Shown piece by piece: positions 9,493-10,275 of a stretch of 42,882 bases of DNA. A program made the translations under genes and the position numbers. Each line of letters opens with the position of its first letter. The first letter of the stretch is position 1. Source of the stretch: Balneolia bacterium (GTDB lineage Bacteria; Bacteroidota; Rhodothermia; Balneolales; Cyclonatronaceae); the NCBI GenBank assembly GCA_022565795.1, contig JAIUMA010000025.1, forward strand, positions 1-42,882, given 5' to 3'. Under the pieces are notes generated by a model, which worked only from the letters and a program-made list of their open reading frames with translations, was not told the origin of the DNA and ran no database searches.

Positions 9493-10275
9493 TTGAAAAA
9501 ATTCCAAAACAAATACCGGATCGAATCAACCCGCCTGCGTAACTGGGACTACGGATGGGAGGCTTTGTATTACATCACCATTTGCACCAAAAACCGGGTA
9601 TGCTGGTTTGGTGATGTGATAAACAGTGAAATGCATTTGTCCGAAATTGGGCAAATCACGGAAAACGAATGGATAAAAACATTCGAAATCCGACCCGACA
9701 TGAATTTGACCATGGGCGAATTTGTGGTGATGCCCAACCATATCCACGCCATCATCGGAATCGGCAAAAACCGGTATAATGATCGTGATGGTGGTAACGC
9801 CGACGGTGGTGGTAACGCCGACCGTAGAGACGCGATGCATCGCGTCTCTACATCGGTGCCGGAATCACCACGGTCGGCGGATTCGCACCCGGATTCGGTG
9901 TCGGAATCACCACCATCGGCGGATTCGACCCCGTCATCGGTGTCGAAATCACCACGGACGCCGGATTCGACATCGCCGCCATCACCCGAAAACCACAAAA
10001 CCAAAAATCAATTCGGGCCGCAATCCAAAAATCAATTCGGGCCGCAATCCAAAAATTTGGCATCCATTGTCCGGGGATTTAAATCCGCCGTAACCATGCG
10101 GGCCCGATTGATACATCCCGAATTCGAATGGCACGTCCGTTTCCACGACCACATCATCCGGAATGACAAGGCGCTTCGTAATATTTCAAGGTACATCATC
10201 AACAACCCGAGGGATTGGAAGGGCGATACGTTTAACCCAGACAGACGCAGACCACGGAAACCGAAAGGGAAATGA
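9493..10275 (+). CDS. REP-associated tyrosine transposase (RayT/TnpA_REP-like)
   Basis: This 260-residue protein belongs to the single-strand Y1/HUH transposase group related to IS200/IS605 TnpA. Family landmarks are present: STRLRNWDYGWEALYYITICT (split about residues 12-32), the HUH motif VVMPNHIHAIIGI, the block NLASIVRGFKSAVT, HDHIIRN, and the C-terminal NISRYIINNP, whose Tyr is the likely nucleophile. Between the HUH motif and NLASIVRG lies an insert of roughly 80 residues, much of it Ser/Pro/Asp-rich, containing an in-frame palindrome and two tandem repeats. The TTG start is supported by family N-terminus alignment (MKKFQNKYRI). No flanking IS ends were found, so it is probably a resident single-copy gene. 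Activity is uncertain given the insert. Confidence 0.88.
   Translation: MKKFQNKYRIESTRLRNWDYGWEALYYITICTKNRVCWFGDVINSEMHLSEIGQITENEWIKTFEIRPDMNLTMGEFVVMPNHIHAIIGIGKNRYNDRDGGNADGGGNADRRDAMHRVSTSVPESPRSADSHPDSVSESPPSADSTPSSVSKSPRTPDSTSPPSPENHKTKNQFGPQSKNQFGPQSKNLASIVRGFKSAVTMRARLIHPEFEWHVRFHDHIIRNDKALRNISRYIINNPRDWKGDTFNPDRRRPRKPKGK
9824..9851. repeat. Perfect 28-bp palindrome inside the RayT gene
   Basis: The 28 bases form a perfect palindrome with half-site GTAGAGACGCGATG. It is read in frame as part of the transposase, encoding RRDAMHRVST across the site. Palindromic REP-like units are the usual targets and partners of RayT enzymes. This half-site resembles a dispersed palindrome I recall from Bacteroidota and cyanobacterial genomes. 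It occurs once in this window. Confidence 0.9.
9853..9978 (+). repeat. Three 42-bp in-frame tandem repeats (14 residues each)
   Basis: Three head-to-tail units start at 9853, 9895 and 9937. They encode SVPESPRSADSHPD, SVSESPPSADSTPS and SVSKSPRTPDSTSP. The units begin just after the palindrome and keep the transposase frame. No spacers separate them, so this is not a CRISPR array. Confidence 0.9.
10001..10056 (+). repeat. 24-bp in-frame tandem duplication
   Basis: Two identical 24-bp units (10001-10024 and 10025-10048) and the first eight bases of a third follow the 42-bp repeats. Each unit encodes the octapeptide KNQFGPQS. One copy of this segment is normal in the family, so this looks like a recent slippage or unequal-exchange duplication. 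Confidence 0.88.

Follow-up and report, generated by a model that had tools for sequence, protein, structure and literature searches.

The window analysed here, a 42,882-nt contig of a Balneolia bacterium, holds a TnpA_REP/RAYT transposase gene whose reading frame runs unbroken through a perfect 28-bp palindrome, GTAGAGACGCGATG followed directly by CATCGCGTCTCTAC, two 14-nt arms without a loop. Its 5′ end is GTAG and its 3′ end CTAC, an arrangement that Quentin et al. 2018 (PMC6006769) call a 'double foot'; in the excerpts used here, they associate the GTAG double-foot type of REP with subclass 2.4 of these enzymes. We propose that the palindrome is probably a REP of that type which was captured into the gene of such an enzyme, was tolerated there and has been kept by hairpin-templated correction.

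An in-frame double-foot REP in a transposase gene

The initial annotation described a perfect 28-bp palindrome in frame in the transposase gene, placed between the HUH motif and the remainder of the enzyme, and both statements are confirmed: MPNHIH precedes it and YIINNP follows it (Table 1). That annotation overlooked a longer, imperfect inverted repeat of 82 nt (about 9798–9879), of which the palindrome forms the apex and which is bordered by 18-, 42- and 24-nt tandem repeats. The later 42-nt units, 81% and 74% identical to the first, belong to an array that encodes 42 linker residues 3′ of the REP. A perfect 28-bp palindrome is expected at a given place with a chance of about 4^-14, and its half-site, allowing up to two mismatches, 0.15 times per window. 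Two of the three reading frames through the palindrome are open, while the third would hit the TAG of GTAG. With its flanks, the REP is predicted to form a strong RNA hairpin (fold z = −7.0).

Table 1 Features of the RAYT gene and its internal REP (positions in the window).
Feature	Positions	Strand	Basis
TnpA_REP/RAYT gene, 260 aa, TTG start	9493–10275	+	profile matches, motifs, fold
HUH motif MPNHIH, residues 80–85	9730–9747	+	alignment
Linker, residues 91–188, largely pLDDT <50	9763–10056	+	AlphaFold2
18-nt tandem repeats, ×2	9789–9824	+	repeat listing
Imperfect inverted flank of REP, left arm	9798–9823	+	inverted-repeat pair, fold
Double-foot REP, perfect 28-bp palindrome, encoding RRDAMHRVST (residues 111–120)	9824–9851	+	sequence
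Imperfect inverted flank of REP, right arm	9852–9879	+	inverted-repeat pair, fold
42-nt tandem repeats, ×3	9853–9978	+	repeat listing
24-nt tandem repeats, ×2 (NQFGPQSK twice)	9998–10045	+	repeat listing
Helix αC, residues 189–207	10057–10113	+	AlphaFold2
Catalytic-tyrosine motif YIINNP (Y234)	10192–10209	+	alignment

The TTG start lines up with the MKKFQNKYRI of homologues. The NCBIfam profile REP_Tyr_transpos (NF047646), which spans 146 positions, matched the long-linker window protein at E = 3.5 × 10^-13 and 49.7 bits, below the curated cut-off of 80, and in Pfam the match to Y1_Tnp stayed sub-threshold. A profile built from 15 relatives matched TnpA_REP (PDB 4er8) at E = 3.4 × 10^-7, and 4er8 was also the best fold match of the AlphaFold2 model. 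In that model the core is mostly above pLDDT 90, and a disordered linker of ~98 residues separates strand β3 (residues 83–90, after the HUH motif) from αC; the REP-coded residues fall inside this linker, outside the catalytic fold. The W motif reads WH (W213-H214), where all 15 aligned proteins have W, followed by Q in 12.

The window gene most likely belongs to TnpA_Y1 subclass 2.4 (RAYT group 4). It shares with that subclass, as described in PMC6006769, the HUH-Y fold, the motifs NH[IFV]H (here within MPNHIH) and YIxNNP (here YIINNP), a length-variable insertion between β3 and αC, seen here in the AlphaFold2 model, and a double-foot GTAG REP within the gene that leaves the frame unbroken. 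Unlike the subclass as described there, the window protein has WH in place of WQ, its H83–Y234 distance is 151 residues against a median of 88, its REP is crowned by the 82-nt imperfect inverted repeat, and no flanking REP was found near the gene, where a search out to about 1.2 kb yielded no further palindrome whose perfect arms reach 9 nt. In the excerpts of that paper, WQ is tabulated as a key motif without being called obligatory, and REPs beside the gene (about 1 kb) are ascribed to a large majority of subclass 2.4 genes, not to all. Quentin et al. 2018 also reported in-frame REPs within tnpA_REP genes of subclass 2.4, at the same place (PMC6006769, same excerpts). For this enzyme subclass, an in-frame REP in the gene is thus already on record; the present analysis adds counts, a positional pattern, a copy in a kinase gene and the inverted flanks.

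Palindromes in related RAYT genes

A match at E 1 × 10^-10 was present in 43 of 97 genomes, the own genome included. GTDB contigs contributed 13 named loci, including ones from Flavobacterium, Bacteroidales, Moraniibacteriota and Neomarinimicrobiota. After removal of duplicates (L093, L130) the set comprised 96 RAYT loci, and discarding 21 in which the HUH or the Y motif was not clear left 75. In 51 of these 75 genes the stretch from HUH to Y contains a palindrome (arm at least 12, at most one mismatch, loop at most 4), versus 38 of 7,500 codon shuffles; the count made on the gene tree used a stricter window and gave 50/75. Homologues lacking the insert, which the initial annotation had named as support for capture, were indeed present: 24 of the 75 lack such a palindrome in the HUH–Y interval, and in 20 of these the whole gene is free of one.

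The usual site lies some 25–90 nt 3′ of the HUH motif and 170–230 nt 5′ of Y, just upstream of the FGPQ..NL..II..FK helix, and this junction is the one most used by relatives. The window REP, 340 nt from Y, is farther away than usual because of its tandem repeats. Seven genes have a palindrome before HUH (L033, L034, L043, L044, L047, L094, L098) and two have one after the helix (L040, L118), so that across the relatives palindromes occupy three places in the protein. The cores vary widely in sequence yet stay palindromic. Cores of the form GT..AC were counted 45, 13 and 1 times in frames 0, 1 and 2, the lone frame-2 core lying downstream of Y, and the frames yield unrelated peptides (RRDAMHRVST versus VETRCIASL-like). 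An identical core occurs in L010, L016 and L040, and by inspection of the gene tree, whose support values come from a quick method only, core type tends to be common to a clade.

Other repeats were seen in and near these genes. The linker of L021 (1813–1910) consists of tandem repeats with seven GTAGGGAC units every 15 nt (NVGTD repeats), which look as if they were multiplied half-REPs, and the RAYT linker near the end of L036 is likewise built of tandem repeats. Upstream of the Flavobacterium-type RAYT genes L043 and L044, several AGACGCGAT..ATCGCGTCT palindromes are arrayed, in addition to copies within the genes.

Copies in the own genome and elsewhere

The initial annotation suggested that the gene may have captured a copy of its own target, in support of which it named many intergenic copies. 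In kind the idea fits, the palindrome being a GTAG double-foot REP of the type associated with the subclass; in number it fails in the own genome, where the many dispersed copies by which REPs are recognised were not found. The 3.59-Mb genome has three copies of this REP kind including the window's (up to 71 in relatives), and the identical core occurs nowhere else in it. The two near-copies, each with two mismatches and both centred on GCAATGCATTGC, comprise one in an intergenic region, after an ORF that we take to be a PhoH-like gene, and one in frame inside another gene, presumably a sensor histidine kinase judging from its motifs.

The kinase copy (L003 1501–1528; G000:C110:4002–4029) reads VETQCIASL and lies between FDAMRA and the DNGPGIP box, in a loop whose length among homologues ranges from 30 to 93 residues. 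The left flank of the copy is conserved in the REP-less homologue L231, and the right flank is similar to the left one read in reverse complement, at an alignment score of 12 reached in 10 of 2,000 letter shuffles; the conservation of the left flank suggests the direction of copying. With the cases in Di Nocera et al. 2013 (PMC3733652), whose excerpted text treats GTAG/CGTC REPs and Rickettsia RPEs read in frame in unrelated genes, our two coding copies share a palindromic repeat translated in frame, probably in a loop, and the kinase copy adds such a case in the own genome; in the window, unlike in those cases, the repeat sits in the transposase's own gene. A literature search with the string GTAGAGAC returned matches that are unrelated, judging by title.

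Two RAYT relatives on contigs C50 and C27 of the own genome (L005, L129) lack such a palindrome within the gene. Just upstream of the C50 relative lies a REP-like palindrome with 8-bp inverted flanks (L167 1501–1530; G000:C50:7328–7357), and near the C27 relative a perfect 44-bp palindrome that is not of the GTAG kind (L006 1098–1141, equal to L008 1439–1482; G000:C27).

Beyond the own genome, two REP patterns found 224 and 84 copies in the 97 genomes, 308 in all. The 83 RAYT spans total 49.6 kb of 332.9 Mb and contain 34 of the 308 copies, against 0.046 expected by length, an excess inflated by shared descent. Among the 43 genomes that contain a RAYT span, 32 have REPs, compared with 6 among the 54 that contain no such span. 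The capture claim fares better in these other genomes, where internal REPs match dispersed ones: the internal core was identical to a sampled dispersed copy of the same genome in 9 of 30 cases, compared with a mean of 2.9 and a maximum of 8 when labels were shuffled 2,000 times. In G008, 11 copies of one pattern fall into two types, two of the copies being slightly changed, and both types are also internal to RAYT genes there.

Inverted flanks at REP copies

The 40-nt flanks of the window REP align as an inverted pair with a score of 13, a value that 2 of 2,000 letter shuffles attained. The nearest relatives, L010 and L011, have the REP at the same place and in the same frame without the window's arms, and because of this the arms probably arose after the REP. 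An 82-nt inverted repeat that the nearest relatives lack fits hairpin-templated copying of the flanks.

Many dispersed copies likewise extend the palindrome with bases specific to each copy. Our sample of 123 was non-random, consisting of the first places per genome plus chosen places; removal of flank-sharing copies left 108, of which 92 lie in genomes with more than one copy. At least four further paired bases were present in 53 of these 92, as against 3.6% when right flanks were swapped within a genome. Copies in G005, G006 and G051 mostly lack inverted flanks, and the RAYT-internal copies as a group show a slight excess of flank similarity (mean 7.1 versus 6.1 swapped).

Orthologous intergenic REPs within genus g8 show paired core and arm changes (L342/L337, L338/L339, L316/L320), and at L316/L320 and L321/L322–L325, also intergenic, the centre is inverted between congeners (CGCC versus GGCG). 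Unpaired changes are present in g8 as well, at L310 and in the GTAG foot of L322–L325, and L318 lacks the REP in a way that resembles deletion between short direct repeats. Seven g17 loci were queried for empty sites and six aligned, with L149 left out. At L152, the right arm is present and the left one missing in two REP-less congeners (L256, L249), which fits copying of one arm. At L213 and L222, the corresponding place in congeners is taken by unrelated hairpins or a different REP; L151 has no clean empty site, and L221 and L223 have no usable ortholog. Of the g8 sets, the sites in G029, G031 and G058 also lack the REP, but these are more distant, and their flanks are too diverged to read.

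These features resemble hairpins attributed to template switching. Excerpts of Monttinen and Loytynoja 2022 (PMC8794818) describe such an origin and upkeep for hairpins in RNA genes, with reverse-complement copying, compensatory multi-base changes and spacer inversion, and PMC8604942, in the part used, treats template switching in a yeast coding case; unlike those RNA genes and yeast proteins, the signature here is at REP copies. In one open-access library, no paper combining REPs with template switching was found by title and abstract opening.

Origin and upkeep of the internal REP

We envisage that REPs were captured several times into RAYT genes and may be tolerated in the linker since a REP can be read through in two of the three frames and this segment is free of folding constraint. 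Preservation and lengthening of the perfect palindrome would then be due mainly to template switching at replication, in which the hairpin serves as template for correcting itself; such self-templating would make the arms change together and copy flanking DNA in reverse. The enzyme may also recognise the internal copy, a putative substrate that a transferred gene would carry along. Several observations stand against this proposal: the own genome has only two near-copies and no identical core; no REP flanks the gene although the subclass is described with them; 24 of 75 relatives have no palindrome between HUH and Y; the protein has WH, and its Pfam and NCBIfam scores are under the curated cut-offs; the G005, G006 and G051 families mostly lack inverted flanks, with only a slight excess at internal copies; and a shared core at a shared place is also explicable by one old insertion followed by divergence. 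A bolder version, possible though doubtful in our judgement, is that REPs of this subclass grow as palindromes by hairpin-primed reverse copying, at insertion or later, and that the internal REP is maintained in this way and not by selection on protein or RNA; the double foot, in which CTAC would be copied from GTAG, could be the first step.

The initial annotation had offered regulation through an mRNA hairpin as an alternative. Selection on a cis element, whereby a hairpin in the gene or mRNA would let the enzyme, RNases or transcription control expression, seems unlikely to us. The strong predicted RNA hairpin, the retention of palindromes of differing sequence in 51/75 genes and a precedent for mRNA structure controlling a REP-targeting transposase (PMC8450116, in the portion used) favour it, but 20 of the 75 genes have no such palindrome anywhere, and similar arms and compensatory changes also occur at intergenic copies, so that nothing about them is specific to this gene. 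We consider it quite improbable that the REP was inserted at the tip of a pre-existing hairpin, for example a terminator, whose old stem would supply the inverted flanks. The unrelated hairpins or other REP in congeners at the two intergenic sites L213 and L222 would suit an old stem, but the REP-less congeners at L152 have a right arm without a left one, L010 and L011 already have the REP yet not the window's arms, and the kinase and RAYT copies lie within coding sequence rather than at terminators. The terminator reading of long arms was accordingly rejected for coding copies and is retained for intergenic ones.

The initial annotation had also raised the case of an ancient part of the protein present at one position in all distant homologues. 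This holds in part, the same place being used in many distant relatives, but we reject an old functional peptide as very improbable: two frames give unrelated peptides, three places in the protein are used, the segment is predicted to be disordered, and relatives without it keep the core. A chance palindrome or a by-product of the tandem repeats that fill the linker is scarcely credible and is rejected too, given the two near-copies elsewhere in the genome, the identical core in three relatives and the codon-shuffle control.

An enzyme gene that carries, in frame, a REP of the type associated with its product raises the question of whether such genes take their substrate along when they move. 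Should the inverted flanks stem from hairpin-templated copying, mutation and not selection would account for the upkeep of REPs, and covariation at REP hairpins would be no proof of RNA function.
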